Shown: piece by piece, positions 36-49,174 of the stretch
How the letters are laid out: every line of letters begins with the position of its first letter
How positions within the stretch are numbered: the first letter of the stretch is position 1
Source: Marinibacterium anthonyi
Lineage (GTDB): Bacteria; Pseudomonadota; Alphaproteobacteria; Rhodobacterales; Rhodobacteraceae
NCBI GenBank assembly: GCA_003217735.2
Contig: CP031585.1
Location: 682,001-746,000 of the forward strand
Reading direction: 5' to 3'
DNA length: 64,000 nt
Notes under the pieces: model-generated
What the model was told of the DNA's origin: nothing
Databases searched by the model: none
The model's input: only the letters and a program-made list of their open reading frames with translations
Position numbers and translations under genes: made by a program

Positions 36-314
36 ATGAAATCCCTCATTCTCGCACTGCCCGTCGCCTTGTCCGCCACGGTTGCCCTGGCCGACAGCCA
101 CTATGTCAACGGCACGGTGACCAAGGTCGACACCCAGTGGAACCGGGTGACGATCGACCACGAGGCGCTGCAGGCGCTCTCGATGCCCGCCATGACCATG
201 GTGTTTGAACTGGCCGATCCCGCGATGATCGAAGGCCTGTCGGAAGGCCAGAACATCGCGTTCGTTGCCGATCGCGTCCAGGGCAGGCTGACGGTAACCG
301 AGATCAAGGAATAG
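36..314 (+). CDS. CusF-type periplasmic copper-binding protein
   Basis: A 92-residue protein with a signal peptide (about residues 1-19, ending ALA before DSHYVNG) followed by one small CusF-like OB-fold domain. In E. coli CusF the Cu(I)/Ag(I) ligands are a His, a Trp that caps the site, and two Met residues in a W-x-x-M-x-M block. Here the spacing is kept exactly: His42, Met50, Met53 and Met55 (SMPAMTM). The Trp position is occupied by Met50. The likely role is periplasmic copper chaperoning or sequestration. No CusCBA efflux genes are visible next to it, so it may stand alone or belong to genes upstream of the window. A strong hairpin lies just downstream. The fold family is fairly certain; the metal preference is inferred. 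Confidence 0.85.
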   Translation: MKSLILALPVALSATVALADSHYVNGTVTKVDTQWNRVTIDHEALQALSMPAMTMVFELADPAMIEGLSEGQNIAFVADRVQGRLTVTEIKE

Positions 315-782: not shown

Positions 783-1814
783 TCAGAAGAACGTCCCGTT
801 CAGCCGTTCGAAGACCCAGAACGTTGCGATCGTTCCGATCCCGTAGGCCGCGGCGATGGGGGCCGTCCGAGGCAGAGCGATCAGGCGGCGCAGCAGGGCC
901 ACCAGCGTCAGCAGCACGGCGATGAAGGCCAGCTGGCCCAGCTCTACCCCGACATTGAAGAACAGCAGTGCCAGCGGGATGTCTCCTTGCGGCAGGCCGA
1001 TGTCGCCCAGTGCCCCGGCGAAGCCGAAGCCGTGCAGCAGGCCGAAGGCAAAGGCGATCAACCAGGGCCAGCGGGTGGCGAGGCTGGTCCGACCGCGGCG
1101 CAGGTGGATGGCCTCGACGGCGACCAGCACGATGCTGAGCGCGATCAGCGTCTCGACCGGGGGTGGCGGCAGCGAGACGAAGCCGAAGGTCGCGAGCGCC
1201 AGGGTGATGGAATGGGCCAGGGTGAAGGCCGTCACAGTCTTTAGCAGCATGGGCCAGCCGCGCACCACCAGCATCAAGGCCGCGACAAAGGCCAGGTGAT
1301 CGACGCCCTCGAGGATGTGCTGGAAGCCGAGGCGGGTGTAGCTTTGGACCACCGACCAGGTCGAAGGGCTCTGCGGGATCCTGACCGAGGCGTCGCGTGG
1401 GCGCAGGAGGAAGCTGTGATGCGTTCCGTCCAGCAGCGAGACATTGACCAGCGTTTCGATTGTCGTGCGGTCCAGGTTGTCGATGCGCAGGGTGGTGCCT
1501 GGCAGGCCTGTTGCGCCGGTCAGGCCATAGCGGAATATCACGAAGCCGTCGACAAGCGCTTCGCCCGGGCGCTGGGTCAGGGTGAGGGCCGGGTCGAAGG
1601 ATGGGCGGATGTCCTGCACCATTCCGTCTCTGGTCGGGACCTTCCACAGCAGTTCGTATCGATGCGGCGCAAGCTCGTCGATCTGCAGGAAGGCCGGGCG
1701 GATCTCGTGTGCTGTTGCCTGCAGAGCCAGAACGCAGAGGGCCCGAACGCAGAATGCCCGAGCGCAGAATGCCCGAGCGCTGAATGCCCGTGCGGAGAGC
1801 AGGCGCAGGATCAT
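783..1814 (-). CDS. HupE/UreJ-type membrane protein (cassette copy 1)
   Basis: 343 residues: an N-terminal export signal, an extracytoplasmic beta-rich domain (about 37-160), then about six membrane helices (about 166-340). The membrane part carries the HupE/UreJ hallmarks HILEGVDHL (His166, Asp172, His173), AHSITLA (His201) and HGFGFAGAL (His261). HupE/UreJ proteins are linked to nickel/cobalt import; this longer form, with an N-terminal domain, has no proven substrate that I know of. The ATG overlaps the stop of the isomerase gene (ATGA, 1811-1814), which fixes the start and indicates translational coupling. Oddly, residues 7-26 are a five-residue repeat (S/C-A/V-R-A-F/L) coded by a 15-bp tandem repeat, so Arg recurs through the region before the short hydrophobic core ALCVLAL. 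It is the last gene of the three-gene unit. Confidence 0.82.
   Translation of the reverse strand: MILRLLSARAFSARAFCARAFCVRALCVLALQATAHEIRPAFLQIDELAPHRYELLWKVPTRDGMVQDIRPSFDPALTLTQRPGEALVDGFVIFRYGLTGATGLPGTTLRIDNLDRTTIETLVNVSLLDGTHHSFLLRPRDASVRIPQSPSTWSVVQSYTRLGFQHILEGVDHLAFVAALMLVVRGWPMLLKTVTAFTLAHSITLALATFGFVSLPPPPVETLIALSIVLVAVEAIHLRRGRTSLATRWPWLIAFAFGLLHGFGFAGALGDIGLPQGDIPLALLFFNVGVELGQLAFIAVLLTLVALLRRLIALPRTAPIAAAYGIGTIATFWVFERLNGTFF
1731..1790. repeat. 15-bp tandem repeat, four units, within the HupE-like signal sequence
   Basis: Four consecutive 15-base units (aacgcagagggcccg, aacgcagaatgcccg, agcgcagaatgcccg, agcgctgaatgcccg) differ by one to three bases. Read on the minus strand they code for the pentapeptide repeat of the HupE-like N-terminus. 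The unit length keeps the frame, so copy-number change would lengthen or shorten the signal region without a frameshift. Confidence 0.85.
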
Positions 1815-2671
1815 GGCCGGACGTAGTCCTGCAGGATGGAGTCGGGTATGCCGTCGGCCTCGAACCGGATCTCGTAGCGGTCCAGCAAGTCGCGGTACAT
1901 GCGATCCTGGGCGTCGAGCACGGTGTAATATTCGTATTGCCGGGCGACATAATCGCGGATCTCGTCGAAGGAGGCCAGCTGTTCGGGCTGACCTTCGGTG
2001 ACCTGCACCAGGTGCAGGCCCAGCCCCGAGCGCACCGGGCCGGACCAGGTGCCCACGGGCAGCGTGCCAAGCGCCTTGGCAAAGCCGCCGCCAAAGGCGT
2101 TCTCCAGCGCCTGGGTCGAGGTCAGCGCCCAGTCGAGCGGGACCGACAGCTTGTTGCGCCGGTCCGGGGGAATCTCTGCGCCGCCCTGCAGGGCGGCAAG
2201 CGTGGTCTCGACCGCGTCGCCTGCCTCTGCCGGAAGATAAAGCACCTGACGGAAGGCGAAGGCCTGGGGCAGGGTGAAGAGGTCGGGCCGTGCGGCGTGG
2301 AAGGCGCGCAGCTGGTCTTCGGTCGGGGGCTGCATGAGGAGGCCAAGATCGCTCGACACGGCCTCCATCTTCTGGGCCAACCGTGTGCGGATGATGTCGT
2401 CGTCCTGGTCCAGCCCCATGCGCAGGGCTTCGCGGTAAAAGACTTCCTGCCGCAAGTGGCGGTCGATGATCGCCGCCCTGTCATCGTCGGCCGGCGCGCG
2501 TTTCCATTGTGCAGTCCAGAGCGTTTCCAGGTGGTCGAGCCGGGCCTGGTCGATGATGATCACCTCCGGCCCCACGTCGGGTTGCGGGGCCAGCCAGCTC
2601 CAGGCCGCGAAGAGCAGCCCGCCCAGCACGAGGAAATGGACGAGCGGCTCGCGGGCGATGGTCTTCAGCAT
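1811..2671 (-). CDS. Membrane-anchored parvulin-type peptidyl-prolyl isomerase (cassette copy 1)
   Basis: 286 residues with one N-terminal membrane anchor (REPLVHFLVLGGLLFAAW, about 7-28) and a periplasmic body like SurA/PpiC-family rotamases: an N-terminal helical part with LRQEVFYREALRMGLDQDD, then a rotamase-like domain (about 150-235) with FRQVLY, NAFGGGFAKAL and GLGLHLVQVTEG. It should act as a membrane-tethered foldase for exported proteins. The obvious candidate clients are its operon partners, the exported DUF3604 protein 9 bases upstream and the HupE-like protein whose start overlaps its stop. A paralogue with the same anchor pattern (PLVHFLxLGGLxF) sits at 46121-46963. The family call is good; the client is inferred. 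Confidence 0.83.
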   Translation of the reverse strand: MLKTIAREPLVHFLVLGGLLFAAWSWLAPQPDVGPEVIIIDQARLDHLETLWTAQWKRAPADDDRAAIIDRHLRQEVFYREALRMGLDQDDDIIRTRLAQKMEAVSSDLGLLMQPPTEDQLRAFHAARPDLFTLPQAFAFRQVLYLPAEAGDAVETTLAALQGGAEIPPDRRNKLSVPLDWALTSTQALENAFGGGFAKALGTLPVGTWSGPVRSGLGLHLVQVTEGQPEQLASFDEIRDYVARQYEYYTVLDAQDRMYRDLLDRYEIRFEADGIPDSILQDYVRP

Positions 2672-2680
2672 CTGGGAGCC

Positions 2681-4489
2681 TCAGTTCACCTCGTACCAGA
2701 TCGGTGAGGCCCAGGCGCGCTCGACCAGCTCGCGCTTGACGTCCTCGGCATAGGTGACGCCGTCGCGCAGCTCGTCATACAGCGTCCAGCGCGCGGTCGG
2801 CAGCTGCAGGACACGGGCGTAGTAGAAGGCCTCGACCTGCGGATCCCACTGCGGATCGGTCCAGACGCCGGCCAGCTCGGGATCGCCCTTGTCCGGGTTG
2901 AAGGCGCCCGTGGACATGTCGATCGGTGCGTCGATCGGTGTGACGCTGCCATCGGCCTGCAGGCGGTCGCCCGAGGCCACGACATCGTAAACGATGTCTT
3001 TCATCTCGCCGTCCTCGTACCAGCCCTTGATGATCTGGATCCGGTCGAGGTTCGGCCCGATCGGATCCTTCATCGCCCAGACGAGGAATTGCGGCGCCTT
3101 CGTCCCGGTATAATCGCCACCCATCGGCACGCCCTTGGCATATCCGTCGGTGACCAGCGCGTCGTAGCTGTCATAGCTGTCGGCGAATCCCTGGCCGGCA
3201 AAGACGCGCACTTTCATGCGGGGGCCGGAGGTAGCAAAGGTTTCCTTGGCCAGCATCGAATCCCAGATCGCGCCGCGCGTGTTCGAGACCGCCCAGACCG
3301 CCGTCAGCGCGCCGGGGTTGGCGTCCGAGATCAGCATCTCGCCCTCCAGCACCGAGGTTGACCGGATCTCGGCCGTCTGGTCGGCGTAGCCGTGGCTGCC
3401 GACGGTGTAATTGTCTTCCTCGACGTTGCTGGGCGTGCCGTTGTGGTTGTCGGTGCCGCCGACGAACCCGTATTTGAACGGGTTCACGCCGATCTCGGCG
3501 TTGTACTTGATTCCGCGTCCCAGCCCGTAACGGACAAAGTTCTCCTTCACGAAACCACGGCCGCTGAACTGCTGGATCGACACCGCGTTTTCGAAATCGG
3601 CGAATTCGTCGTTGGGCCAGAAGTTCGGGATGACCTCGGAATTGCCCTTCACCTGCATCATCTCGATCAGCGGCTCCATCGAGGCGCGCGTCTCGGCGTA
3701 GTCCTTGCCGATCGGCACGCCGGTCAGGCTCGCCTCGGCAAAGAGCAGGCCCTTGGATTCGTTGGAATTATGCGGGATGGCAAAGACCTTCTTGCCATCG
3801 TCCCGTTGCGTCTGCATCCAGGCCCAGAGCTGTTCGGGATCGTCCCCTTCGTTCGAGGAAAACGGCAGGTCAGGCACGTTGGTGTCGCGGAAGAAGACGT
3901 TGCGGTGCTGGTTCGACCCGCCCGGCGCCGAGGTCCATTCATAGGCGTGGATCGTGGTGAAGGTGCCGGGGGCGTAATGCGTCTCGGTCGCCTCGAAGTT
4001 CTTCTGCCAGGTGGACTTGATCGCCTCTTCGCCCTGGAAGAAGGCCGGATGCGGATCGCCGCCGCCGGCCAACGGGATCAGGACGTATTGGTTGTAAAGC
4101 CCAAGAGCCGTTTCAAGGTCGGGCGCGGTGCGGAAGGCCACGGCGATCTCGTCGTCATAACCCGGCGCCCCCGCGTTCATCAGGCTGTAAGCCTCGCCCA
4201 TGAACTCCGAATGGTCGGTGACGGCGACGAAATCCAGCGGGCGCTTGATCTTGTGAAGGCTGCCGTTGACCATGATCTCTTCGCCCTTGGCGAAGCGATA
4301 GGCGTCGTCGGGCGTCAGGCGGTTGCCGGCGATGAAGGCATCCATCGACACGCCGGTATGGACGTGTTCCTCGCCGAAATATGCCTCCTTCAGCGGGTTC
4401 GCGGGCGCGTCGGCCTCGGACGTCTGCGCGATCAACGGCGAGGCGGCCAGAACACCGCCAATAAGGGTTAACAGTCTTGCATGGGTCAT
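2681..4489 (-). CDS. Exported DUF3604 (PHP-like) protein, cassette copy 1
   Basis: 602 residues with a signal peptide (about 1-21, ending PLIAQ). Motifs recall metal-binding PHP/amidohydrolase-like folds: HVH (His42, His44), VTDHSE (Asp92-His93), YEWTSAPGG followed by QHRNVFF, AIPHNSN, and GGTDNHNG. This is the DUF3604 pattern, a family with no experimentally defined reaction that I can name; a periplasmic metal-dependent hydrolase is the natural guess. It is the first gene of a minus-strand unit with a foldase and a HupE-like membrane protein, and it faces a Crp/Fnr-type regulator across a 70-118 base gap containing a palindrome. A paralogue with the same partners lies at 46965-48881. The catalytic-type His/Asp residues are kept in both, which argues that both are active. 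Confidence 0.85.
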   Translation of the reverse strand: MTHARLLTLIGGVLAASPLIAQTSEADAPANPLKEAYFGEEHVHTGVSMDAFIAGNRLTPDDAYRFAKGEEIMVNGSLHKIKRPLDFVAVTDHSEFMGEAYSLMNAGAPGYDDEIAVAFRTAPDLETALGLYNQYVLIPLAGGGDPHPAFFQGEEAIKSTWQKNFEATETHYAPGTFTTIHAYEWTSAPGGSNQHRNVFFRDTNVPDLPFSSNEGDDPEQLWAWMQTQRDDGKKVFAIPHNSNESKGLLFAEASLTGVPIGKDYAETRASMEPLIEMMQVKGNSEVIPNFWPNDEFADFENAVSIQQFSGRGFVKENFVRYGLGRGIKYNAEIGVNPFKYGFVGGTDNHNGTPSNVEEDNYTVGSHGYADQTAEIRSTSVLEGEMLISDANPGALTAVWAVSNTRGAIWDSMLAKETFATSGPRMKVRVFAGQGFADSYDSYDALVTDGYAKGVPMGGDYTGTKAPQFLVWAMKDPIGPNLDRIQIIKGWYEDGEMKDIVYDVVASGDRLQADGSVTPIDAPIDMSTGAFNPDKGDPELAGVWTDPQWDPQVEAFYYARVLQLPTARWTLYDELRDGVTYAEDVKRELVERAWASPIWYEVN

Positions 4490-4545
4490 CGTTACTGGTC
4501 CTCGTTCGGGTTGGGCCCAGGGGCGCCGGTGCCGTCAGAATAGCA

Positions 4546-4562
4546 CATGATCACGTATCATG
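4546..4562. promoter_or_regulatory. Inverted repeat between the DUF3604 operon and its divergent regulator
   Basis: CATGAT-cacgt-ATCATG forms a 6-5-6 inverted repeat in the divergent intergenic region, about 57 bases upstream of the DUF3604 start. The symmetry and size suit a dimeric regulator such as the neighbouring Crp/Fnr-type protein. It overlaps an ATG at 4560, which is one reason to prefer the regulator start at 4608. Binding is inferred. Confidence 0.45.
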
Positions 4563-4607
4563 ACCGGGCATAGACTATCCGGCCAAAGCCGGTCACATTG
4601 CCCACCG

Positions 4608-5312
4608 ATGGGCATTTTAAGGCATACAGGCGTCACGGTCGGGGACAGGGCCAAGCTGGAGGGCCGAGGCTGGCTATGGGGCCAGTCCGAGGCGATCCGC
4701 ATGGCGGTTCTGGATGCCTGCCAGCCGCTGGAAATCGACGCCGGCCAAAGCGCTATCCATCTTGGCGGGGAGGAGGGCGGCCTTTTCGGGCTGATCGATG
4801 GCTGGATCGATGTCCTGATCTCGCCCGGTCCGTTGGAGCCTACGCTGGTTCACGTCGCGACGACCGGCTGGTGGTTTGGCGACAGTGCATTGATCACCCG
4901 GACCCCAAAGCGCGGCGCCCATGTCGCGCGCACGCCCTGCCGGATCGCGCATCTGCCGGCAGAGGCGGCAGATCGCCTTGCACGTGGCGGACTGGATATC
5001 TGGCGCAGCATCGCCTTCATCTCGGTCGGTGTCATCGACCATGCCTTCGCGGCGGTGGCGGCAAGCCGGATTCACCAGCCGCTCGCCCGGGCCAGACTGA
5101 CCCTGCGCATCCTTCTGGGCGAGGGGCTGTCCTTTGCCGCCGGCGCGCCGCTCGATCCGAGGGTGCTGCCGATCTCGCAGGCTGAATTCGCCGAGATCGC
5201 CGACCTCTCGCGCAATGCGGCGGGGGATGCGCTGCGAGCGCTTGCTCAGGCTGGGGTGATCCGGCTCGGGTATCGCGAGATCGAGGTGCTGGATGTGGCG
5301 CAGCTGAACTAA
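4608..5312 (+). CDS. Crp/Fnr-family transcriptional regulator
   Basis: About 234 residues. The first two thirds form a cyclic-nucleotide-binding-like beta roll (GGLFGLIDGWIDVLI, then GWWFGDSALI). A connecting helix follows, and the C-terminus is a winged helix with the Crp recognition pattern SQAEFAEIADLSRNAAGDAL. There is no cysteine cluster for an Fe-S centre, so an oxygen-sensing FNR role is unlikely. It is divergent from the DUF3604/PPIase/HupE unit and probably controls it. The start is uncertain: ATG at 4608 gives MGILRHTGV, while an in-frame ATG at 4560 would add 16 residues and overlap the palindrome. Neither has a strong Shine-Dalgarno sequence. Confidence 0.8.
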   Translation: MGILRHTGVTVGDRAKLEGRGWLWGQSEAIRMAVLDACQPLEIDAGQSAIHLGGEEGGLFGLIDGWIDVLISPGPLEPTLVHVATTGWWFGDSALITRTPKRGAHVARTPCRIAHLPAEAADRLARGGLDIWRSIAFISVGVIDHAFAAVAASRIHQPLARARLTLRILLGEGLSFAAGAPLDPRVLPISQAEFAEIADLSRNAAGDALRALAQAGVIRLGYREIEVLDVAQLN

Positions 5313-13239: not shown

Positions 13240-14937
13240 ATGCTGAACTCGGCCAGCCCGGCGTCCGGCCCACCTGACGTTCCTGCGGGGTGCGACGAAG
13301 AAATTCGCGCGGTCGAGGCCGTTTTTACGGAGGCGGCGGACGCCCTTGCCTCGGGGCAGGCACAGCTGTTCGATCTCGTCCGTGTGCTTGATGCCTATCG
13401 CGACGGCCTGGTGGCCATGTCCGGTGAAGATATCGAAGCCGGCGTCAAGGCCATGGCAGGCAAATTCGTTCAGACCCGTGACGCCTTTGGCCGCGAATGC
13501 GCCGCCATTTCCAAGATCGAAAGCAACCTGCAGGCCGCGCTGCAGCCTCTGGCGCGGCTTCAGGACCGGGTTCAGACGCTGCAGGTCTTCACCAGCACCG
13601 CAAGGGTGGTCGAGGAAGAGTTCGGCGTGGATGGCGAACACGCGTTCTCGCACAAGATCCGGGAACTGACCGCCAGCAGCAGGACCGGATACGAGGAATT
13701 GCACCATTACAGCCAGGCGATCCTGGGGCAGACCGTTGAAGTGCGGGCCAGGCAGGCGAGTTTCGCCGGGTCCGGGCTCGACGCGCTCGCCAGGTTGAGC
13801 GACGAGCTGCTGGACCTGGCCGAGACGGTCGTGCCGCGGCTGCATGCCGCCAAGCAGGACGCCGCCCATGTGGCCGTGGTGATCACGCAGTTGTCCGATC
13901 TGATGTCCCGCGCAATCTCGGCCCTTCAGGTCGGCGACAGTTTCCGCCAGAGGCTGGAACACGCGCGCGCGGGCATCGCGTCCTGCCCCCCGAAAAGCGA
14001 AGCACCAGAGGCGCATGACCTGGTTGTGCTGCTCGTTTCGGCGCAGCTTTCCGCGGCCGGACGGGCACTGGACGCCGATCTGGACCGCGTGGCGACCGCA
14101 ATGTCGGAGGTGTCGGCGAAAACCGGCGGGCTGGTCGAATGGGGGCGGTCGAACCTGGCCGGGTCCGACACGGCGGACTTGCTGGGGTCGCTGCAGGATC
14201 TGTGCGGATCCAGCCTGGCCAAGCTTTATGGCTCGCAGGCCGAACGGCGCATACTGGACGGGCAATTGCGCAAATTGCGGCACATCACGGGCAACATGCA
14301 GCGGGTCATGGCCGAGCAATCGGCTGTCGACATCGAGATGAAGCTGGGAAGCTACAATGTGTCCCTGCGCAGCCGTGCGTCCACCGAGAAGGGCGCGGCG
14401 ATGGCTTATGTCGCCAAGCAGATCGGCGAACTGGTCGATCATTGCCTTGCCGCCCGCCACGAGATTGTCGACTGCCTTGAAACGGTCAGGACGACGATCA
14501 TGGGAACGATCGAGAAGAACGAAGGCAGTGTCGCGGGCGATCTGGAAAGCATTGGAGACCGGCTTGCGGGACTGGGCCGGATGATGCGCCTGTGGCGGGA
14601 TTTCGAAAGTAACCTCAAGACGCTGACGGACATAGGCCCTTCCGCGATCGCCGATTTCTCACGCTGCGCCCAACAGATGCGCGCGCAGCGGTCGGCGGCG
14701 CGGTCCGTGCAGCTCCTCGCCGAGACGCTGTCGGATGGCCTGTCATTCTCGGACGCGGCCGCCTTGCTGAACGATCCGCGGGCGCGAGAGGCCTCCGAAG
14801 CGCTGCGGGCGCTCTATTCGGTCCCCGAGGAACGCGAGATCCACGACATGCTGTGCGGCGGATCGACCGAAGTCCCGGTTCCGGCCCCCGTCGCGGGGAC
14901 CGAGGAAGACAGCGAGGACGCGTTCGAATGGTTCTGA
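13240..14937 (+). CDS. Soluble coiled-coil protein beside the che operon, with CheZ-like DxxxQ helix
   Basis: 565 residues, almost entirely predicted helix, with no signal peptide or membrane segment, so it is cytoplasmic. It has no HAMP domain and no MCP hairpin tip. A helix near the middle reads AISALQVGDSFRQRLEHA: Asp233 and Gln237 match the D-x-x-x-Q spacing that CheZ-type phosphatases use to dephosphorylate CheY. Other parts look like structural helices (for example YNVSLRSRAS). ATG 13240 is preferred over an in-frame TTG at 13204 because AAGGA lies 10 bases upstream. It is divergent from the che operon and followed after 28 bases by a globin gene. I do not recognise the full-length family; a CheY-P phosphatase or signalling scaffold is an inference. 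Confidence 0.7.
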   Translation: MLNSASPASGPPDVPAGCDEEIRAVEAVFTEAADALASGQAQLFDLVRVLDAYRDGLVAMSGEDIEAGVKAMAGKFVQTRDAFGRECAAISKIESNLQAALQPLARLQDRVQTLQVFTSTARVVEEEFGVDGEHAFSHKIRELTASSRTGYEELHHYSQAILGQTVEVRARQASFAGSGLDALARLSDELLDLAETVVPRLHAAKQDAAHVAVVITQLSDLMSRAISALQVGDSFRQRLEHARAGIASCPPKSEAPEAHDLVVLLVSAQLSAAGRALDADLDRVATAMSEVSAKTGGLVEWGRSNLAGSDTADLLGSLQDLCGSSLAKLYGSQAERRILDGQLRKLRHITGNMQRVMAEQSAVDIEMKLGSYNVSLRSRASTEKGAAMAYVAKQIGELVDHCLAARHEIVDCLETVRTTIMGTIEKNEGSVAGDLESIGDRLAGLGRMMRLWRDFESNLKTLTDIGPSAIADFSRCAQQMRAQRSAARSVQLLAETLSDGLSFSDAAALLNDPRAREASEALRALYSVPEEREIHDMLCGGSTEVPVPAPVAGTEEDSEDAFEWF

Positions 14938-36359: not shown

Positions 36360-38009
36360 TCAGCCCCGACGTTGCAGGAACATCGGCCCGACGCGGATGC
36401 CCTTGCGCCCTTCGTCATCCACCGCACCCAGTTCCAGCACCTCTTCCTCGTACAGCAACCCGTGCATGCGGAACCGGTCCTTGTCGATGGGCTCGCAGGA
36501 ATGGGTGCAGAAATATTCGATCAGGCACAACAGCTTGCCATGGCGAAAGCTCAGGTAGGTCACGTTGAAATCCGGCCCGTATTCGCCCAGGTGCGGCGCG
36601 ATCTCGGGCGGCGGCGCGTCGTCGGGCAGGTCCGTCGTGAGCGTCCAGTCGGTGTCCTTCCAGCGCAACTTGCCCGGTTCCGGAAAGCTCAGATCCAGGT
36701 GAGGGTAATCGGCCCCCTTGCCATAGATCCGCCCGTCGATGACGAAATCCTTGCCGCCCTTGGGCCGGATCTGCAGCGGCACGCCGTCGCCCATCAGGTA
36801 CAGCTTGCCGTCCTGCGCCTTGACCTCGACCACCTCGCCACTTGCTGCGTCCAGGTAATTCCCCGGCAGTTCGGCGAACTGGTCTTCGGTGATCGGCGCG
36901 GGGCGTTGGTTGCGCGACGGCGCTTTGCCCATCTTGCGTTCCGCCAGCGCCACGCGCAGCCCCTCGGCGCCCAGCCGCTTGGTGATCTGGTTGGCGAAAT
37001 CCAGCGTCGCGAAGATCAGCACGCCGATGCCCGCCGAGGGGATCAGCGACATCTCGGACGCATATCCGTAAACCGCCCCGCCATGGCCCACCGTCGTCCA
37101 GCCGTCCATCACGCCCACCCCGTAGCACAGCCCATAGCCGTTGATCACCTTGCCATGCGCCTTCCGCTCGCCGACCGGCGTCCACATCTCGCGCAGCGAT
37201 GCGGGCGAAACCACCGGCGTGCCATCCGGCGCGAACCCGCCGCGCAGCAGGCATTGGGCATAAGCGCCCATGTCTCCGGTGGTGGAAAAGATGTTGCCCG
37301 CGGGCGATCCGCCCAGATCGAAGACCGGCGCCGGGCTGTCGCCTTCGATGGTCCACATGTCCGCCGGGGCCAGCCTTTCGCGGATGCCCGGGGCCATGCC
37401 GGATGAGGTCTGCGTCATCCCCAAGGGCGTCAGGATATGGCGCTGCACGTAATCGGAATAGCTGAGCTTGCTGACCTTCTCGATCACCATCCCCACCACC
37501 GCGATCCCGGCGTTGGAATAATGCATGATCCCCGCGCTCGGGTCCTGCTTCAGCGTGGTCTGCGCCAGCTCGGCCACCGTTTCCTCCAGCGGCGGGCGGT
37601 GGGCATCAAGGTAATGGCCGCTTTTCGGTTCGCGGACCAGACCGGCGGTATGGCTCATCAGCTTTCGCAGGGTGATGTTGGACCCGAACGGCCCGCTTTC
37701 CCGCCCCGCAAACGGGTTCGTGGGCGTGAAGCCCGGTAGGTAGGTGGTGATGTCGGCGTCGATATCCACCTTGCCCTGTTCCACCAGCTGCATGATCGCC
37801 ATGGACGTGAAGGTCTTGGTGATCGACCCGATGCGGAAACAGGTGTCGTCGGCCATCGGGAAGGATCGGTCGGACCGCTGGATATGCCCCTGCGCCAGCA
37901 GCCCGTCGCGGTCGACCAGCGCGTAGGAAATGGACGGGATCGCCTTGTCCTCGACCTCGTAGGCGATGAGGTCCTGAAAGAGGCCTTTCGCCTCGGTGGA
38001 AAGTGACAT
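36360..38009 (-). CDS. Beta-lactamase-fold serine hydrolase (D-aminopeptidase/PBP4*-like)
   Basis: 549 residues. The class C/penicillin-binding motifs are all present: SITK (Ser62 nucleophile, Lys65), YSN in GIMHYSNAGIAVVG, and HGG in TVGHGGAVYG. The last ~200 residues are beta-rich, similar to the extra domains of D-aminopeptidase DmpA/DAP and PBP4*. There is no signal peptide, so it is probably cytoplasmic. It sits 12 bases downstream of the permease genes of a peptide transporter, and upstream of a D-aminopeptidase, so hydrolysis of D-peptides, amides or esters is likely. True beta-lactamase activity is less likely. Confidence 0.88.
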   Translation of the reverse strand: MSLSTEAKGLFQDLIAYEVEDKAIPSISYALVDRDGLLAQGHIQRSDRSFPMADDTCFRIGSITKTFTSMAIMQLVEQGKVDIDADITTYLPGFTPTNPFAGRESGPFGSNITLRKLMSHTAGLVREPKSGHYLDAHRPPLEETVAELAQTTLKQDPSAGIMHYSNAGIAVVGMVIEKVSKLSYSDYVQRHILTPLGMTQTSSGMAPGIRERLAPADMWTIEGDSPAPVFDLGGSPAGNIFSTTGDMGAYAQCLLRGGFAPDGTPVVSPASLREMWTPVGERKAHGKVINGYGLCYGVGVMDGWTTVGHGGAVYGYASEMSLIPSAGIGVLIFATLDFANQITKRLGAEGLRVALAERKMGKAPSRNQRPAPITEDQFAELPGNYLDAASGEVVEVKAQDGKLYLMGDGVPLQIRPKGGKDFVIDGRIYGKGADYPHLDLSFPEPGKLRWKDTDWTLTTDLPDDAPPPEIAPHLGEYGPDFNVTYLSFRHGKLLCLIEYFCTHSCEPIDKDRFRMHGLLYEEEVLELGAVDDEGRKGIRVGPMFLQRRG

Positions 38010-38021
38010 TGCTAGGGTCCT

Positions 38022-38894
38022 TCAGACTTGATGGCGCGGGTCCAGGACATCGCGCAGCGCATCGCCCACGAGGTTCCAGGCCAGAACGAAGAGAAAGATT
38101 GCCGCCCCCGGGAAGGCCAGCGTGTACCAGAACTGGAACGGGTTGCCGGCCTGGCCGACAATCCAGTTGCGGGAATAGGCGATGAAGTTGCCCCAGTCGG
38201 CATAGCCTTCCTCGGTCCCCACCCCCAGGAACGACAGGGCCGAGGCCGACAGAACCATGGACCCCGTCGCCATGCTGGCCATCACCAGCACCGGGAAGAA
38301 GGCGTTGGGCAGGATGTGCAGCACGATCAGCCGCAGGTCGGATGCGCCATAGGCGCGGGCGGCCGAGACGTAATCCATCTCGCGGATCCTCAGGATCTCG
38401 GACCGCACCACGCGCGCGTAACCCATCCATCCGAACGCGGTCAGCGCGATGATGATCGGCACCAGCCCCTTGCCGAGAATGACGCTCAGCACCAGCGCCG
38501 CGATCAGGAAGGGCACGGCCAGAAAGACATCCACCAGCCGCATCAGCACCTCGTCGACGATCCCGCCGTAATAGGCCGCCACCGCGCCGATGGCCGTGCC
38601 GATCAGCGCGGAAATGGCCACCACGCCGAGGCCAATCTTGAACGCCGTCCGGGTGCCCCAGACCACGGCGTAATAGATGTCGTACTGGCCCTGCGTCGTG
38701 CCGAACAGCGCGTCGGGCGACGGCGGCTGCGGCGTCGCCCAGAACCCGGCGCGGGGCGTGTCATAGGCGGTGATCTGGAAATCGGTCGGCGGGGCCAGCA
38801 GGGGCGCGAACACCGCCACCAGCACGAAGGCAAGCAGCAACAGCAGACCGAACAGCGACATCGGGTTCGCCAGCAGGTAACGCAGCACTCTCAT
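38022..38894 (-). CDS. Peptide ABC transporter permease (DppC type)
   Basis: 290 residues with about six membrane helices, an N-terminal cytoplasmic tail, and the EAA-like loop ARAYGASDLRLIVLHILPN that contacts the ATPases. It pairs with the DppB-type permease, whose stop it overlaps by four bases (38891-38894). It moves peptides or similar solutes inward. Confidence 0.93.
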   Translation of the reverse strand: MRVLRYLLANPMSLFGLLLLLAFVLVAVFAPLLAPPTDFQITAYDTPRAGFWATPQPPSPDALFGTTQGQYDIYYAVVWGTRTAFKIGLGVVAISALIGTAIGAVAAYYGGIVDEVLMRLVDVFLAVPFLIAALVLSVILGKGLVPIIIALTAFGWMGYARVVRSEILRIREMDYVSAARAYGASDLRLIVLHILPNAFFPVLVMASMATGSMVLSASALSFLGVGTEEGYADWGNFIAYSRNWIVGQAGNPFQFWYTLAFPGAAIFLFVLAWNLVGDALRDVLDPRHQV

Positions 38895-39928
38895 CGTGTC
38901 TTCACCCGCGGATCAAGCATCGGATAGATCAGGTCGACGATCAGGTTCAGCACCACCAGCACCAGCGCGAAGTAGATCGCAAACCCCAGAACGGCGGGAA
39001 AATCCAGCCCCGCCGCGGACTTGGCCGCGAACTGCCCCAGCCCGGGGAAGTCGAATATCGTCTCGGTGATCACAACGCCGCCCATCATGTAGGCCAGTTC
39101 CATCCCCGCGATGGTCACCACCGGCAGCAAAGCATTCCGCCTTGCATGGCGCAGGTCCACCACCTTGCGCGGCATCCCCTTGGCCCGCGCGGTGCGCACG
39201 TAATCCTGTTTCAGCGTCTCCAGCATCGAGGTCCGCATCACCCGCGTGATGCTGGCCACGTTCACGTACATCAGCGTGACAACCGGCGCGATCAGGTGGC
39301 GCATCGCATCCCAGAACACGGCCAGGTTCCCGTTCAGCAGCGCATCCACCGTATTGGCCCCGGTATAGCGGGTGAACCCGCCGCCATTGACCTCGGTCAG
39401 CGCCCATTGGCTCAGCCGTCCGGGCGGGAACCAGTCCAGCGTGGAATAGAAGATCAGCAGCATCATCAACCCGAAGACATAGGTCGGGAAGGACCAGCCG
39501 AGGATGGCGAAGATCCGGATCGCGTGATCCTGCCACTTGTTGTGATGGATCCCCGCGCGCGAGCCCAGCCAGATCGCCAGCAGCAGCCCCGGCACGAAGG
39601 CCAGGATCACCAGCTCCATCGTCGCGGGAAACAGGGAAGACAGCGCCTGCGCCACCGGCTGGCGCGCGGTCTCGGACCAGCCCAGGTTGCCGTGCAGGAT
39701 ATTCCCGATCCAGCGCGAATATTGCGCCAGGAACGGATCATCCAGCCCGTATTCCTGGATCATCATGCGGATGCTGTCCTGCCCGCCCTTCAGGTAATCG
39801 TCCGACGGCGCATAGGCGGCCAGTCTCTGGGTCGGGCTTAGCGACATCTGCAGGCCGAAGATCATCAGGGACAGGGCGAAAAGCACGACGGGCAGCATCA
39901 ACAGCCGCCTCAGGGCATAGGTCAACAT
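38891..39928 (-). CDS. Peptide ABC transporter permease (DppB type)
   Basis: 345 residues with about six membrane helices. The start MLTYALRRLLMLPVVLFALS is typical for DppB/OppB. It contains an EAA-like motif near RTARAKGMPRKVVDLRHARRN. It overlaps the DppC-type gene at its 3' end and follows the binding protein after 69 bases. Together with 38022-38894 it forms the membrane channel. Confidence 0.93.
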   Translation of the reverse strand: MLTYALRRLLMLPVVLFALSLMIFGLQMSLSPTQRLAAYAPSDDYLKGGQDSIRMMIQEYGLDDPFLAQYSRWIGNILHGNLGWSETARQPVAQALSSLFPATMELVILAFVPGLLLAIWLGSRAGIHHNKWQDHAIRIFAILGWSFPTYVFGLMMLLIFYSTLDWFPPGRLSQWALTEVNGGGFTRYTGANTVDALLNGNLAVFWDAMRHLIAPVVTLMYVNVASITRVMRTSMLETLKQDYVRTARAKGMPRKVVDLRHARRNALLPVVTIAGMELAYMMGGVVITETIFDFPGLGQFAAKSAAGLDFPAVLGFAIYFALVLVVLNLIVDLIYPMLDPRVKTR

Positions 39929-39997
39929 CGCAGGGCCGGGTCCATTCGGGGAAAGTCAGGGATGCGCCGGGCAGGGGGACCCGCCCGGCGCAAGCGG

Positions 39998-41923
39998 TCA
40001 GTCGGCCTTGGTGATCGGATAGAAATCCCAGGCGCCATAGGTGATCATGTTGTGGACATAGCCGTCGATATTGTCGCGCACGACGATGTAACCGAACTCC
40101 TCGTACAGGAAGATCGTCGTGGCATAATCATGCGACATCTCCTGCAGCTTGGCATAGATCGGCTCGCGCACGTCCGGGTCCGACGATGCCCAGGCCTCGT
40201 CCAGCAGCGGCTGGAACTTTTCGGCCATCAGGTCGCGATACCCCTGGCCCGAGAAGCCCCCGACCAGGCCCGTCGGCGACAGGTAATAGGTGGCGGCGCC
40301 CAGCGGGCCGCCCGGGTCGGAATAATCGGGGCCCCAACCCATGTACATCAGCGGCGCGGCGGGCTTTTCCCGGTTGTTGCGCAGCGCCGACAGCGACGAG
40401 GGCGGCAGCGACTGGATCTTCAGCTTGAACTTGGGATTGATCCGCTGCAGCCCCTGCTGAAGGATCGACAGCGCGGCAATGCCGTTGGTCGCCCCCTCCT
40501 GCACATAGGCGGTCATCTCGAACCCCACGTCCCAGAGCTTGCCGTCATAGGCCGCCTTGAAATGCTCGGCCGCCTTCTCGGGATCCCATTCGTAGACGGG
40601 CGAATCCTCGCGGTAGCCCATGATCCCGCGCACGGTGGGCCCGCGCGATTGCACCGTCCGGCCCAGCAGAACCTGGTCCAGCAGGATGTCGTAGTTCATC
40701 GCATAGCTGAAGCCCTGCCGCACATCCAGATCGCCGAAGAAATCCGGCGGGATCCCCTTGCCGTCCAGCTGGCCCGACCCGATCGCCGGGTTGTCGACCT
40801 CGTCCAGCGGCCAGAAGAAGAACAGCCCGCGCCCGAACACCTTGGGCAGGCTGTCGATCACCTTCACCCCGTCGGTCGCGGCCATCTCGTCCAGGAATTC
40901 CACCGGGGTTTCCGCGAAATCCGCGTCGCCGTTGATCAGCTGCAGCCGCCGCGTGGTCCATTCCGGCACGGTCCGGATCACCACCCGTTCCAGCGACGCC
41001 GGCTTGTCCCAATACCCTTCGAACCGCTTCAGCGTGATGCGCCGGTCGGTCTTGTCCCAGTCTTCCAGCATGAAGGGACCGGACCCGTTTTCCACGTCGA
41101 ACAGCGCATCCTCGCTCAGCTCCGGGCGGTAGTAATCGTACCAGGTATCGCCATCGCCGTCCCAGCCGCCCACGTCCGCGGTCCATTCCGCATCGACGAT
41201 CGACGTGCCGAAGGGCAGTGCCATGATGCCCAGCGTCGCCGGAAAGGACGACGGGATCGTCAGCGTCACGGTGTCCCCATCGACCACGATCTGCGACGCC
41301 AGCGCGTCATAGACCTCGCGCAGCGCCTCGGGGCTGGCGTTGGCGATGTCGTCCACCCCGGCCACGTCCTTCACCCAGGCGGTGATCGACGTGTACTGCC
41401 CCGCCGTCACCACCTCGGTGATCGCGTTCGACATCCAGCTTTGGCCCATCAGCATCGCGCGCAGCAGCGAATACCTGACGTCCTCGGCGGTGATCTCGCC
41501 ATAGCCCGGTTCGATCGCCGCCTTCTCGTCGTCGCTCAGCTCGTCGTAGAATTTCCACGCGATCGCGCCGTCGGCGCCTTTGACGCCCACCTTGTGCGTG
41601 TGCACGTCGGCGCGGATCGGAAAGCTGTAGCTGACCGACCCGTCATCGTTCTGGACGATCAGCCCGTTGTCCAGCGACGGCACCTCGGTCGACAGCGCCG
41701 GCACGAATTCGGAAATCTCCGAGCCCTTGAAGTTCAGCAGCCGGTTGTAGACGTTCAGCACCCCGTAGGAACTGGGCGTGTCGGCGATATAGGCAGGGTC
41801 GAACGACTGGACATCGCTTGACCACAGAAAGACGAAGGTCCCGGGGTTCTTTGTCTCGGCCAGGGCGGGCGCGGCCGCCAGTCCCAGACAAAGGCCCAGC
41901 GACGTGACGAGGGCACGTTTCAT
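39998..41923 (-). CDS. Peptide ABC transporter substrate-binding protein (family 5)
   Basis: 641 residues with signal peptide (MKRALVTSLGLCLGLAAAPA, cleaved after ALA). It shows the SBP_bac_5 pattern: WSSDVQSFDPAYIADTP, RADVHTHKVG, FWPLDEVDN and others. The length is above the usual 500-550, owing to inserted segments in the second lobe (for example GWDGDGDTWYDYY). It binds oligopeptides or similar solutes for the DppBC-type permease. A 6-5-6 palindrome lies just upstream of its start and the LysR regulator is divergent. Confidence 0.93.
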   Translation of the reverse strand: MKRALVTSLGLCLGLAAAPALAETKNPGTFVFLWSSDVQSFDPAYIADTPSSYGVLNVYNRLLNFKGSEISEFVPALSTEVPSLDNGLIVQNDDGSVSYSFPIRADVHTHKVGVKGADGAIAWKFYDELSDDEKAAIEPGYGEITAEDVRYSLLRAMLMGQSWMSNAITEVVTAGQYTSITAWVKDVAGVDDIANASPEALREVYDALASQIVVDGDTVTLTIPSSFPATLGIMALPFGTSIVDAEWTADVGGWDGDGDTWYDYYRPELSEDALFDVENGSGPFMLEDWDKTDRRITLKRFEGYWDKPASLERVVIRTVPEWTTRRLQLINGDADFAETPVEFLDEMAATDGVKVIDSLPKVFGRGLFFFWPLDEVDNPAIGSGQLDGKGIPPDFFGDLDVRQGFSYAMNYDILLDQVLLGRTVQSRGPTVRGIMGYREDSPVYEWDPEKAAEHFKAAYDGKLWDVGFEMTAYVQEGATNGIAALSILQQGLQRINPKFKLKIQSLPPSSLSALRNNREKPAAPLMYMGWGPDYSDPGGPLGAATYYLSPTGLVGGFSGQGYRDLMAEKFQPLLDEAWASSDPDVREPIYAKLQEMSHDYATTIFLYEEFGYIVVRDNIDGYVHNMITYGAWDFYPITKAD

Positions 41924-41944
41924 GGCATTCCCTGTTGCTGTTTT

Positions 41945-41961
41945 TTCGCTTGTGCAGCGAA
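41945..41961. promoter_or_regulatory. Inverted repeat upstream of the peptide-binding protein gene
   Basis: TTCGCT-tgtgc-AGCGAA is a 6-5-6 inverted repeat 22 bases upstream of the binding-protein ATG. A second symmetric element, ATGC-N7-GCAT (42011-42025), lies at the regulator start. Both are candidate sites for the divergent LysR protein, which typically binds T-N11-A type sequences; binding is inferred. Confidence 0.4.
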
Positions 41962-42035
41962 GGATGAAACGGCGCTTGCCGGGCTGTCCAATGCTAAGAT
42001 AGGGATTGATATGCAAAAAACGCATGAGGTTTGGC

Positions 42036-42977
42036 GTGGAACTGGATTGGCTGGAGGATTTCATCGAGTTCATCGCGACGCGAAATTTCTCCACCGCCGC
42101 CGCGTCGCGCAACATTTCGCAATCCGCCTTCAGCCGCAGGATCAAGGCGCTTGAGGCTTGGCTGGGCGCCGACCTGATCGACCGCAGCACCTATCCCGCG
42201 CGCCTGACGGGGGCCGGAAACCTCTTTGTTCCACGGGCCGAAGAACTGGTGCGCACCATGTACCAGGTCCGGTCCGAATGCCGGAACCTGTCGGGTGTCG
42301 ATGTCTCGCCGCTGTCGTTTTCGGCGTTGCACACGCTGGCGATCTACTTCTTCCCGCGCTGGCTGCACGGGTTGTCGCAATCGCCCGAACCCGTCCATTG
42401 CACCATGCAGGCGGGCGATTTTCTCGACTCCATCGAACAGCTTACTGCCCGGAAATGCGACTTTGCGCTGGTCTATGACCACCCCGGCAGCCTGCCTGTC
42501 CTGCAATCCGGCCCGTTCGAGTCGGTGCAGGTGGGCACCGACCGTCTGATCCTGGTCAGCGGCTGCGACGGGGACGGCAAACCGCTTTATTCCGTGGACG
42601 AAGACGACATCGCCACGCCCATCCCCTACCTCGCCTATGCCTGGAGCGACGGCTATCTTGGCAAGCTGATCAGCCTGATCCAGTCGCGCCGCTCGCCCGA
42701 ACTGCCGCTGTCGACGGTCTACCAATCCTCGCTGGCCGAGGCGATCAAGCAGATGGCCATCGTCGGCAACGGCATCGCCTGGCTGCCCCAGATCTGCGTG
42801 CGCGACGCGCTGGCCAATGGCGAACTGGTCCAGATCGGCGGCACCCAGATGACGATGGAAATCCAGATCCGCCTGTTCCGCCGGTCCGGCCGGCAAAGCC
42901 CGGCGGTCGAAGCCTTCTGGCGCCACCTGGTCGCGGCCAGGGGCGACCGGCAGGGCAGCGTGCCGATTCGCCCCTGA
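42036..42977 (+). CDS. LysR-family transcriptional regulator
   Basis: About 313 residues. The N-terminal HTH (WLEDFIEFIATRNFSTAAAS, then SQSAFSRRIKALEAWLG) and a substrate-binding-like effector domain are clear. The start is uncertain: GTG 42036 gives the family-typical MELDWLEDF-like start with GAGG nearby, while an ATG at 42024 would add four residues. It is divergent from the peptide-binding protein and co-directional with the two ATPase genes, so it most likely controls the split transporter locus. Confidence 0.88.
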   Translation: MELDWLEDFIEFIATRNFSTAAASRNISQSAFSRRIKALEAWLGADLIDRSTYPARLTGAGNLFVPRAEELVRTMYQVRSECRNLSGVDVSPLSFSALHTLAIYFFPRWLHGLSQSPEPVHCTMQAGDFLDSIEQLTARKCDFALVYDHPGSLPVLQSGPFESVQVGTDRLILVSGCDGDGKPLYSVDEDDIATPIPYLAYAWSDGYLGKLISLIQSRRSPELPLSTVYQSSLAEAIKQMAIVGNGIAWLPQICVRDALANGELVQIGGTQMTMEIQIRLFRRSGRQSPAVEAFWRHLVAARGDRQGSVPIRP

Positions 42978-43259
42978 ACGGGCCGCGAACCGGGTGGGCG
43001 GCGCTCAGGAATTGGGCAATCGTTGTTCCGGTCTGCGGAAAATTGCATCCTCATGCGTAATGCGCATAGTCTTCTCCATTTTTCACGCCACACCGCCTTT
43101 GGGCGCACCGGGCACGGCAGATCCCCAAGCCGGGGCGCCCCCAGCGCGACAGGTTCGGCCCGCTGTGCCCAAGGCATCGCCACAACGGCGCACCAGCTGC
43201 CCGGTTGACAGCTCCGGGCCCCCCGTGCCTGCATTCGCACAAACACTCTGCACCACGGG

Positions 43260-44176
<917 letters not shown>

Positions 44177-44180
<4 letters not shown>

Positions 44181-45131: not shown

Positions 45132-46124
45132 TCAGAACCCGCTTAGCCGTTGGATCACCCAGAACGCCGCCAGGCTGCCGATCCCGTAACTCGCCACGCG
45201 CGACAGCGCCGGGCCGTGCGCCGCCAGCACCGGAACCAGCCGCCGGGCAAGATAGCCGAAGGCCAGGCAGGCCGCGATGAACATCACCTGACCCAGCTCC
45301 ACGCCGACGTTGAATGAAAACAGCGCCAGCGGGATGTCCCCCCGCGGCAGCCCGATGTCACGCAGGGCACCCGCAAAGCCCAGCCCGTGGATCAACCCGA
45401 ACCCAAAGGACACCAGCGCCGGATAGCGCATCGCCAGCGGATCGCGGCGATCCGGCGGCAGGGCCAGTTCCCAGGCCAGGAACACGATCGACAGCGCGAT
45501 CACCACTTCGACCGGGGCAGGGGGCAGGCGCAGCCAGCCCATCGTCGCGGCGGCCAGCGTGATGCTGTGCGCCAGCGTGAAGGCGGTGATCGTCCACAGC
45601 AGCCGGCGCGGATCGCGGATCAGCAACAGCAGCGCCAGCACGAACATCAGGTGATCGGCCCCTTCCAGGATATGCACCACCCCCAGCGATACATACGCCC
45701 CCAGCACCCCCAAGGGGCCGGGATTGTCGGGCAACGCCACCTCGGGTGCACCCGGTGTCAGCCGCAGGCCCTGGCCGTCGCCCGGCTCCAGCTCATAGCG
45801 CAGCAGCGTGTCGGTCCCGGTGCGCTCAAGCCCCTCGATCCGCACCACCCCGCCGGCCAGCCCGGCAGGGCACAGGGCCTCGAACGTCGTGCTCCAGCCG
45901 CGCCCGTCAAAGACCGGCGGCGGCGGCACATAGGAACACCCCTCGGGCAGGCGCGGCGTCAGCGCCATCGGTTGCCCGACCACGTCCGGCACCCGCCAGA
46001 TCACGCGCCAGCGGTCATCGCCCATCGCCGTCAGCTCTAGGTAGGCCGGGTCCAGAGCATGGGCGCGGGCCAGCGCCGGGCACAGCGCCAGCAGCGCCGC
46101 CAGAAGCAGGATCAGCCGTTTCAC
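45132..46124 (-). CDS. HupE/UreJ-type membrane protein (cassette copy 2)
   Basis: 330 residues from a GTG start that overlaps the isomerase stop (GTGA, 46121-46124). It has an ordinary signal peptide (KRLILLLAALLALCPALARA), an extracytoplasmic domain (about 22-140) with two Cys (Cys63, Cys85), and then six or so membrane helices. HupE hallmarks repeat copy 1: HILEGADHL (His151, Asp157, His158), AHSITLA (His186) and HGLGFAGAL (His246). Unlike copy 1, the N-terminus has no tandem repeat. Nickel/cobalt transport is suggested by the family but not proven. It is the last gene of the unit and converges with the DppF-type gene. Confidence 0.85.
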   Translation of the reverse strand: MKRLILLLAALLALCPALARAHALDPAYLELTAMGDDRWRVIWRVPDVVGQPMALTPRLPEGCSYVPPPPVFDGRGWSTTFEALCPAGLAGGVVRIEGLERTGTDTLLRYELEPGDGQGLRLTPGAPEVALPDNPGPLGVLGAYVSLGVVHILEGADHLMFVLALLLLIRDPRRLLWTITAFTLAHSITLAAATMGWLRLPPAPVEVVIALSIVFLAWELALPPDRRDPLAMRYPALVSFGFGLIHGLGFAGALRDIGLPRGDIPLALFSFNVGVELGQVMFIAACLAFGYLARRLVPVLAAHGPALSRVASYGIGSLAAFWVIQRLSGF

Positions 46125-46963
46125 GGTTGCAGCACATCCGCAAGCGGGGGTTGATCGACGCTGAACCGCGACATGAGCCTGTCGATGTATTCCTCGCGCA
46201 GCGTCCGCGCCTGATCGGCGCGCCAGTCGGCGATGACGCGGTCTCGGATCTGGTTCAGGGGCGGCAGCGCCGGGGCCGCGCGGGCTTCGACCCGCACAAG
46301 GTGGCGGCCATAGGCGCTGTCGACCGGGCCGGCCCATGCGCCTTCGGGCAAGGTGGTCAGCGCCGCGCCGAAACCCGCGCCAAAGACCCGGTCCGCCGCG
46401 CCCCCGGCCATCCCGTCCAGGCGCCCCGGCAACAGCGTCGCCTGGCCCAGCTGCGCCGGATCCGCCCCGCCCGCCAGCGCCTGCAACAGCGCGTCCACGG
46501 CGGCGTCATCAGCCCCGTCGGGCAACAGCACCTGGGCAAAGCTCACCTCTGCGGGCCGCTCGTACAGGTCTGAATTGTCATCGTAATATTCCGCGATGGT
46601 CGCCTCGTCCGGGACCAGGCCGGCCACCGGCGCTTCGGCCAGGAACAGCATCTTCTGGCGCAACCGGGCGCGCACGATGGCATCCCCCTGGTCCAGCCCC
46701 AGCGTCCTGGCCTCGCGCACCAGCGCCTCTTCCACGATCCAGTCCTGCATCAGCCCGTCCAGCTCCTCCAGGCTGGGCAGGCGTCCCCAGGTGTCGACAA
46801 AGCCCTGCGCCAGCCGGTCGGCCTCATCCAGGCTCAGCACGATCCGGTCCTCGGGCACCGCCGCCTGCGGCGGGTTCATCGCGCCATAGGCCACGAAGAT
46901 CAGCCCGCCCAGCCCAAGGAAATGCACCAGCGGGGACCGCACAACCGCGCGAAGCAGCGTCAT
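46121..46963 (-). CDS. Membrane-anchored parvulin-type peptidyl-prolyl isomerase (cassette copy 2)
   Basis: 280 residues with an N-terminal anchor (RSPLVHFLGLGGLIFVAY, about 9-27) and a rotamase-like periplasmic part. Shared blocks with copy 1 include the anchor, LGLDQGDAIVRARLRQKM and the C-terminal layout. A key rotamase region is GGAADRVFGAGFGAAL, then YGRHLVRV. It is separated from the DUF3604 gene by only one base and its stop overlaps the HupE-like start. It should fold exported clients, most simply its neighbours. Confidence 0.84.
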   Translation of the reverse strand: MTLLRAVVRSPLVHFLGLGGLIFVAYGAMNPPQAAVPEDRIVLSLDEADRLAQGFVDTWGRLPSLEELDGLMQDWIVEEALVREARTLGLDQGDAIVRARLRQKMLFLAEAPVAGLVPDEATIAEYYDDNSDLYERPAEVSFAQVLLPDGADDAAVDALLQALAGGADPAQLGQATLLPGRLDGMAGGAADRVFGAGFGAALTTLPEGAWAGPVDSAYGRHLVRVEARAAPALPPLNQIRDRVIADWRADQARTLREEYIDRLMSRFSVDQPPLADVLQP

Positions 46964-46964
46964 G

Positions 46965-48881: not shown

Positions 48882-49174
48882 GGTCTGTCCAACTCGTTGA
48901 AGCACTGGCGCCAGCCTAACACGAGCGGTCGCGATTTCCATCCGGCGGTTCGATCATCGCGGATCCCAAGCCTGTCCCGCGGGGCGGTGAATACCCGCAT
49001 TCCCCGCGCTGGTCCGACGCGCCCAAAGGGCCATCACCCCGGTCGTCGCAACCGGAACCGGCCAATGCGCAACAGGCGGAAAATCTCGGAACGCCAAGGC
49101 GTTGACCCGGCAAATCCCGCTCCATACGGTGCCGCCGGCACATTGGTGCGAAAAATGGAGTTATCGGATTTTCA

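Follow-up and report, generated by a model that had tools for sequence, protein, structure and literature searches.

The closest described counterparts of the genes treated here, cited from the accessible parts of the papers concerned, are found in Bacillus and among the HupE/UreJ_2 membrane proteins. In Bacillus, TerC proteins supply metal to exoenzymes, and SecY and PrsA co-purify with them (PMC10550928). The anglerases Ang-1 and Ang-2 are fusions of an N-terminal His domain with HupE/UreJ_2 (PF13795; PMC12537917), and for the hydrolase CehA a review lists four important histidines, two of them in a spaced HxH (His313, His315; PMC8292978). Here we describe a set of three genes, coding for a DUF3604 protein, a PpiC/Rotamase_2 foldase and a HupE/UreJ_2 membrane protein (hereafter unit HupE), in a stretch of 64,000 nucleotides of Marinibacterium anthonyi (contig CP031585.1, positions 682,001 to 746,000), which we call the window and in which an earlier note, made from the sequence alone, had pointed out one such set. 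The three genes almost certainly form a real system, and the best reading of the whole, to which we lean by a narrow preference, is that foldase and HupE make up a module dedicated to folding DUF3604 enzymes exported by Sec and to loading them with metal.

As with TerC (MeeF/MeeY of Bacillus subtilis, which works with SecYEG and PrsA), a membrane metal protein and a tethered parvulin-type foldase would here stand at the Sec-dependent export of a metalloenzyme. TerC serves several clients whereas foldase and HupE accompany DUF3604, and the likeness is one of analogy, no relation in sequence being claimed. We know of no TerC that is encoded with one client family. Anglerases and unit HupEs are alike in a signal peptide, a periplasmic beta domain, a HupE/UreJ_2 membrane domain and, mostly, a predicted N-terminal His; the periplasmic domain of the unit HupE is the shorter (about 110 residues as modelled, compared with about 175 in the anglerases). 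The HupE/UreJ nickel permeases (PF04955) have an HX5DH-type motif in common with the unit HupE, which carries the periplasmic domain in addition. DUF3604 in turn shares the PHP fold with the CehA/McbA proteins (NF038032) and with the structures 3e38 and 2anu as judged by Foldseek, the profile similarity being weak and remote. In the accessible part of the literature searched, which takes in few subscription journals, we found no description of the three-gene unit, and the name DUF3604 only in a Chlamydia transposon list. We know of no reaction assigned to the family.

Results

The window contains two complete units, made up as follows.

783..1814, minus strand: unit 1 HupE_UreJ_2, 343 residues, with a signal peptide (by eye), a beta domain and a helical membrane part
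1811..2671, minus strand: unit 1 PpiC/Rotamase_2 foldase, 286 residues, hydrophobic (membrane stretch) at its N-terminus and with a parvulin-like domain
2681..4489, minus strand: unit 1 DUF3604, a putative exported PHP-type enzyme of 602 residues
45132..46124, minus strand: unit 2 HupE_UreJ_2, whose GTG start overlaps the foldase stop (GTGA)
46121..46963, minus strand: unit 2 PpiC/Rotamase_2 foldase, 280 residues
46965..48941, minus strand: unit 2 DUF3604, 658 residues

Unit 1 (783-4489) is transcribed in the order DUF3604, foldase, HupE, and a direct reading of the sequence places a four-nucleotide ATGA overlap of the last two genes at 1811-1814. A Pfam scan assigned its products to DUF3604 (E 2.8e-199), Rotamase_2 (E 1.1e-13) and HupE_UreJ_2 (E 2.1e-49), so that reading frames, strands, families and overlap are all as the earlier note had them. 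Its span of 783-5312 holds the three genes and their divergent neighbour and thus takes in a Crp-type gene on the plus strand (4560-5312), and its picture of a single unit overlooked the second one at 45132-48941, which has the same order and strand. In the whole genome (6.8 Mb, 13 contigs) these two are the only DUF3604 matches (E 0.001). Their proteins are 38% (DUF3604), 32% (foldase) and 43-44% (HupE) identical and the two HupEs fall in different subclades, and we therefore rejected the idea that the unit had been duplicated in tandem recently. We also considered whether the enzyme gene of unit 1 had been exchanged, DUF3604 and foldase having their nearest relatives in Bacteroidota; we make no such claim because the nearest relatives of the HupE are a mixture.

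The company of the three genes holds across genomes. In a first sample of 398 genomes of the phylum, with full-length DUF3604 taken as at least 650 bits, all 24 genomes with such a protein carried the unit HupE subfamily, as did 2 of the 374 others (Fisher p 1.6e-36). The two are G348 and G162, the latter with its pair next to a remnant of DUF3604. The HupE profile (A2) found 31 places at 362-454 bits in these 26 genomes and its next match at 216 bits, scores that are high partly by construction because A2 was built from the unit HupEs of this sample (without G262, G301 and G348). The earlier note had allowed for DUF3604 genes being found mostly without the other two, and this is not so: the foldase-HupE pair is present in all 24 genomes, within the same stretch as a DUF3604 in 22 and elsewhere in the genome in G262 and G301. 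The second sample comprised 174 mostly new genomes around G070, 46 of them with DUF3604 at E < 1e-100; G070 and G174, the only positives of this sample that had entered A2, were set aside. HupE at 235 bits or more, a line set afterwards, occurred in 42/44 DUF3604 genomes and 5/128 others, rising to 7/128 if two weaker matches (228 and 211 bits) are included (Fisher p 6e-32 or 3e-30).

All these p-values are too small owing to the relatedness of the genomes, which leaves the contrast itself unaffected, and some genomes without DUF3604 are present in both samples. Genomes with weak or partial DUF3604 were counted among the others (G122, G031, G162, G243 and G130 in the first sample; G122, G533 and G130 in the second). 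The best 3, 5, 7 or 12 candidates per genome were scored depending on the scan, so that gene numbers are lower bounds and a miss is possible. Among 40 HupE_UreJ_2 loci chosen by hand from the match list, mostly from genomes without DUF3604, a foldase adjoins the HupE in three (G262, G301, G348). Linkage by phylogenetic chance was rejected on the strength of the two genome samples and of gene orders that differ between loci.

The arrangement of the genes varies. Eighty loci were named from one collection scan in which at least 582 relatives were found; 35 hold all three genes (two with a divergent HupE-like protein) and one holds DUF3604 and HupE. The 36 regions of the phylum sample divide into 25 with all three genes, nine with DUF3604 alone and two others. 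Across 60 loci the order is DUF3604-foldase-HupE in 28 and foldase-HupE-DUF3604 in eight, the remainder being arrays, inversions and mixtures, and foldase and HupE overlap by one or four nucleotides as called in 29/58 pairs. Fifteen loci besides the window have two to five full DUF3604 genes for a single foldase-HupE pair, and G534, a complete genome, combines 13 DUF3604 genes scoring 500 bits or more with one HupE of the unit subfamily (best 12 candidates scored). G534, G400, G424 and G436, all of one order, contain many DUF3604 genes together with weak matches in frames of about 430-800 residues. The distances of the three proteins over 56 loci correlate most closely for foldase and HupE (r 0.70, against 0.54 and 0.51; Mantel test, shared species history uncorrected). 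In G031 one open reading frame (L046 8037-9023, minus strand) fuses a lipoprotein-like DUF3604 N-terminus in frame to the second half of a unit HupE, probably what was left when a single deletion removed the rest of the unit.

The DUF3604 protein of unit 1 matches PF12228 at 663.8 bits over positions 2-590 of 591, above the curated cut-off, and that of unit 2 at 771.4 bits. The AlphaFold2 model of the former has a mean predicted local distance difference test score (pLDDT) of 94.7 and a predicted TM-score (pTM) of 0.93. Foldseek placed it closest in the PDB to two PHP proteins, 3e38 at E 1.1e-6 and 2anu at E 1e-3, each with probability 1.00 and with modest TM-scores (normalised to the target 0.45 and 0.61, to the query 0.28 and 0.25); a PDB search by sequence gave no useful match. 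His42, His44, Asp92, His93, Glu184, His195, His240 and Asp347 are invariant in 91/91 sequences and His349 in 90/91, and these nine we presume to be the PHP ligand set HxH, DH, E, H, H, DxH. In the model they sit at or just past the ends of predicted strands, His195 just before one. The PHP-like fold and the invariance of His42, His44, Asp92, His93, His240 and Asp347 are compatible with the putative metal site that the earlier note had looked for, and the predicted structure points to DUF3604 as a PHP-type, probably metal-dependent hydrolase. Searches of NCBIfam including the CehA/McbA model NF038032 gave no match for the unit 1 protein, and of 34 family members 18 match that model with E values no higher than 5, the best being 2.6e-4. 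Viral contigs, scanned once with the unit 1 protein, yielded no relative. By regular expression, on uncurated starts, 0/91 N-termini were twin-arginine-like and 36/91 had a lipobox-like stretch, from which we infer export through Sec in the unfolded state, the enzyme presumably ending as a periplasmic protein or lipoprotein.

The unit 1 HupE matches PF13795 (HupE_UreJ_2) at 167.6 bits (cut-off 24.5), as expected for the HupE/UreJ-like permease first proposed, and scores 21.6 bits against the nickel permease family PF04955, below the cut-off of 23. In its model (pLDDT 90.0, pTM 0.79) a beta domain at 41-145 is followed by long helices. H166, D172, H173, H201, E234, H261 and E291 are invariant in all 59 distinct aligned rows, and we take H166-X5-D172-H173 to be the HX5DH motif of HupE. 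The predicted mature N-terminus (cleavage site by eye) is His in 45/59 distinct rows, including both HupEs of the window, Asp in 13/59 and Asn in 1/59, whereas the His of Ang-1 is invariant as far as the accessible part of its description goes. In a tree of 104 HupE_UreJ_2 membrane domains, the unit HupEs, from Pseudomonadota, Bacteroidota, Acidobacteriota, Gemmatimonadota and Thermodesulfobacteriota, are split from 39 others by one branch with support 100/99; the L072 row is on an extremely long branch that makes its placement meaningless. The L121 HupE, beside DUF3604 on a short contig that does not hold a foldase, groups with the unit HupEs, and so the unit/non-unit label needs two changes on the tree.

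The third HupE_UreJ_2 gene of the genome (L168 4198-7999; G000:C1 about 2832000) lies beside DUF4198, PfkB and Indigoidine_A genes, which are published neighbours of Ang-1 (PMC12537917). Relatives of these three neighbours were found in none of 61 linked loci. With L168 standing in for the published Ang-1, the unit HupE forms a clade apart, has other neighbours and varies in its N-terminal residue, and we rejected its assignment to Ang-1. A gene of the HupE_UreJ family proper (PF04955) was seen in L056, a relative of the window's family, at 13438-14025 between a DUF3604 array and a PpiC-HupE pair.

The unit 1 foldase matches Rotamase_2 (PF13145) at 52.5 bits (cut-off 27), and profile matches extend to Cell-binding factor 2, HP_0175, SurA and PrsA. 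With profile A3, which was built with both unit foldases included, these two reach 309 and 295 bits, and no other PpiC protein of the genome exceeds 36 bits; judged by its sequence the unit foldase is a distinct foldase type within this genome. Parvulins have two conserved histidines, and the C-terminal one is invariant in 27/27 unit foldases.

The surroundings of unit 1 include a regulator gene and two palindromes.

4546..4562: perfect palindrome of 17 base pairs, CATGATCACGTATCATG, in the divergent gap, a possible operator
4560..5312, plus strand: Crp-type regulator (HTH_Crp_2 and cNMP_binding by Pfam), divergent from unit 1
4599..4614: second, shorter palindrome

Homologues of the Crp-type regulator occur in 3/116 other loci (L073, L077 and L056, at 22-29% identity), with a further match of 44 residues in L046. 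We rejected it as a standard part of the unit on these counts: the divergent regulator first described is indeed present beside unit 1, and it is a local accessory of that unit. The pattern of the palindrome CATGATCACGTATCATG occurs three times in the genome, this copy included, and at least one palindrome with such arms arises in 18% of shuffles of the divergent stretch, so that it is only suggestive as an operator; no match to it within two mismatches was found at unit 2.

On its other side unit 1 ends convergently with a gene for a CusF-type periplasmic copper-binding protein (window 36-314), and unit 2 is flanked (window 36360-45127) by genes for a peptide-type ATP-binding cassette transporter (ATPases by eye), a beta-lactamase-fold hydrolase and a LysR regulator. 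No hydrogenase or urease genes were recognised around either unit, no search having been aimed at such linkage. DUF3604 neighbours in other loci (L050, L070, L071, L073, L075, L077) include DUF1254/DUF1214, Phenol_MetA_deg porin-like proteins, DUF2092, DUF6515, DUF748 and a sulfatase; among the neighbour-gene clusters, called by a crude longest-reading-frame rule, no metal-specific neighbour stood out.

Discussion

The DUF3604 family is widespread but unstudied, and in the sampled genomes it is nearly always accompanied by foldase and HupE, which suggests that these helpers fold the exiting enzyme and load it with metal. The DUF3604 enzyme would cross the inner membrane unfolded by Sec. The PpiC-like foldase, held on the periplasmic side by a one-helix anchor, would hold or fold the emerging chain, and HupE/UreJ_2 would supply the metal through its membrane path (HX5DH and the further invariant His/Glu) and its periplasmic beta domain, raising the metal level or handing the metal over where DUF3604 folds. 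One foldase-HupE pair would in this way serve many DUF3604 enzymes of differing specificity in one cell. We infer that the three proteins also interact physically. A multi-ligand exported enzyme, a tethered foldase and an invariant membrane path of metal type together argue for a client with its maturation module, and the presence of a single pair alongside many clients speaks for a service role. The logic of metal enzyme, foldase and metal permease put forward in the earlier note would fit these predictions; its three-gene linkage and PHP-like fold stand, the Crp gene is no general part of the unit, and the second unit was overlooked. We consider a metal role of HupE likely. Metal flow towards the periplasm is favoured because the client is exported, and to outward metallation by HupE we give at best about an even chance.

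A number of observations weigh against folding and metallation by the pair. In 44/80 named loci DUF3604 stands alone in the stretch examined, the pair possibly being elsewhere in the genome. The second genome sample has no clean score gap, which is why the 235-bit line was drawn afterwards; five to seven of its genomes, and G348 of the first sample, have HupE without strong DUF3604, and two (G420 and G465, 91% and 87% complete) have DUF3604 without HupE. No significant match of HupE to solved structures came from a PDB sequence search or from Foldseek. The first parvulin His position is Gln in 16/27 foldases, both of the window among them, and His in 11/27, so that isomerase activity is doubtful: of the membrane-tethered isomerase described earlier the hydrophobic N-terminus and the parvulin-like domain remain, and the protein may, from its sequence, be more a chaperone than an isomerase. 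Two Flavobacteriaceae loci, L072 (4232-6394) and L079 (14761-16887), encode after the foldase a polytopic protein of 708-720 residues without HX5DH and with weak matches to the HupE profile (71 and 65 bits, in L079 over the periplasmic part only), and the metal permease may therefore be replaceable.

The known direction of transport counts on the same side. Escherichia coli with classical HupE or UreJ accumulates nickel (PMC5557971), opposite to the flow required by a client outside the cytoplasm, and for the anglerases a role in capturing and assimilating metal has been proposed by their authors (PMC12537917), both according to the accessible parts of these papers. Taken together with the predicted N-terminal His in 45/59 distinct rows, this uptake direction speaks for nutrient acquisition, in which DUF3604 would free a metal or a metal-bearing ligand outside, an anglerase-like HupE would import it and the foldase would only fold the enzyme. 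We hold this to be unlikely: a His is not required, given Asp or Asn in 14/59, one HupE for 13 DUF3604 paralogues suits a service role better than a single metal source, and no metallophore gene was recognised among 19 neighbour and variant proteins scanned, a small part of the neighbours.

In the variant loci L072 and L079 the foldase and a periplasmic domain like that of HupE persist together with an altered membrane part, as would be expected if the periplasmic domain and the foldase folded the clients and the membrane part were an anchor with no direct role in metal. The correlation of the protein distances, closest for foldase and HupE, is in line with such a folding platform. An anchor would not be expected to keep its membrane His, Asp and Glu in 59/59 distinct rows, and we judge this explanation improbable. 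Least probable is a catabolic cassette whose HupE_UreJ_2 imports an organic or anionic DUF3604 product in place of metal, for, although the Phenol_MetA_deg porin-like and sulfatase neighbours of some loci, the catabolic look of an expansion to 13 copies and the weak resemblance that some family members bear to the CehA/McbA model point that way, HX5DH and four further membrane His/Glu are kept in every distinct row and a single permease is unlikely to serve many enzymes with presumably different products.

Returning to folding and metallation by the foldase-HupE pair, one may tentatively see in the unit HupE a third class of HupE/UreJ_2 proteins with a periplasmic domain, one that gives metal outward co-translocationally with a chaperone of its own as a Gram-negative counterpart of TerC and PrsA specialised for a single, large family of exported PHP metallohydrolases, a proposal we advance at somewhat less than even confidence. 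If the pair is needed for activity, a DUF3604 protein expressed alone would be apo or misfolded, and co-expression of the pair makes the family testable. If the proposal is true, Gram-negative bacteria would have a dedicated route for bringing the right metal into Sec-exported metalloenzymes, and the role of HupE/UreJ_2 proteins would extend beyond uptake.

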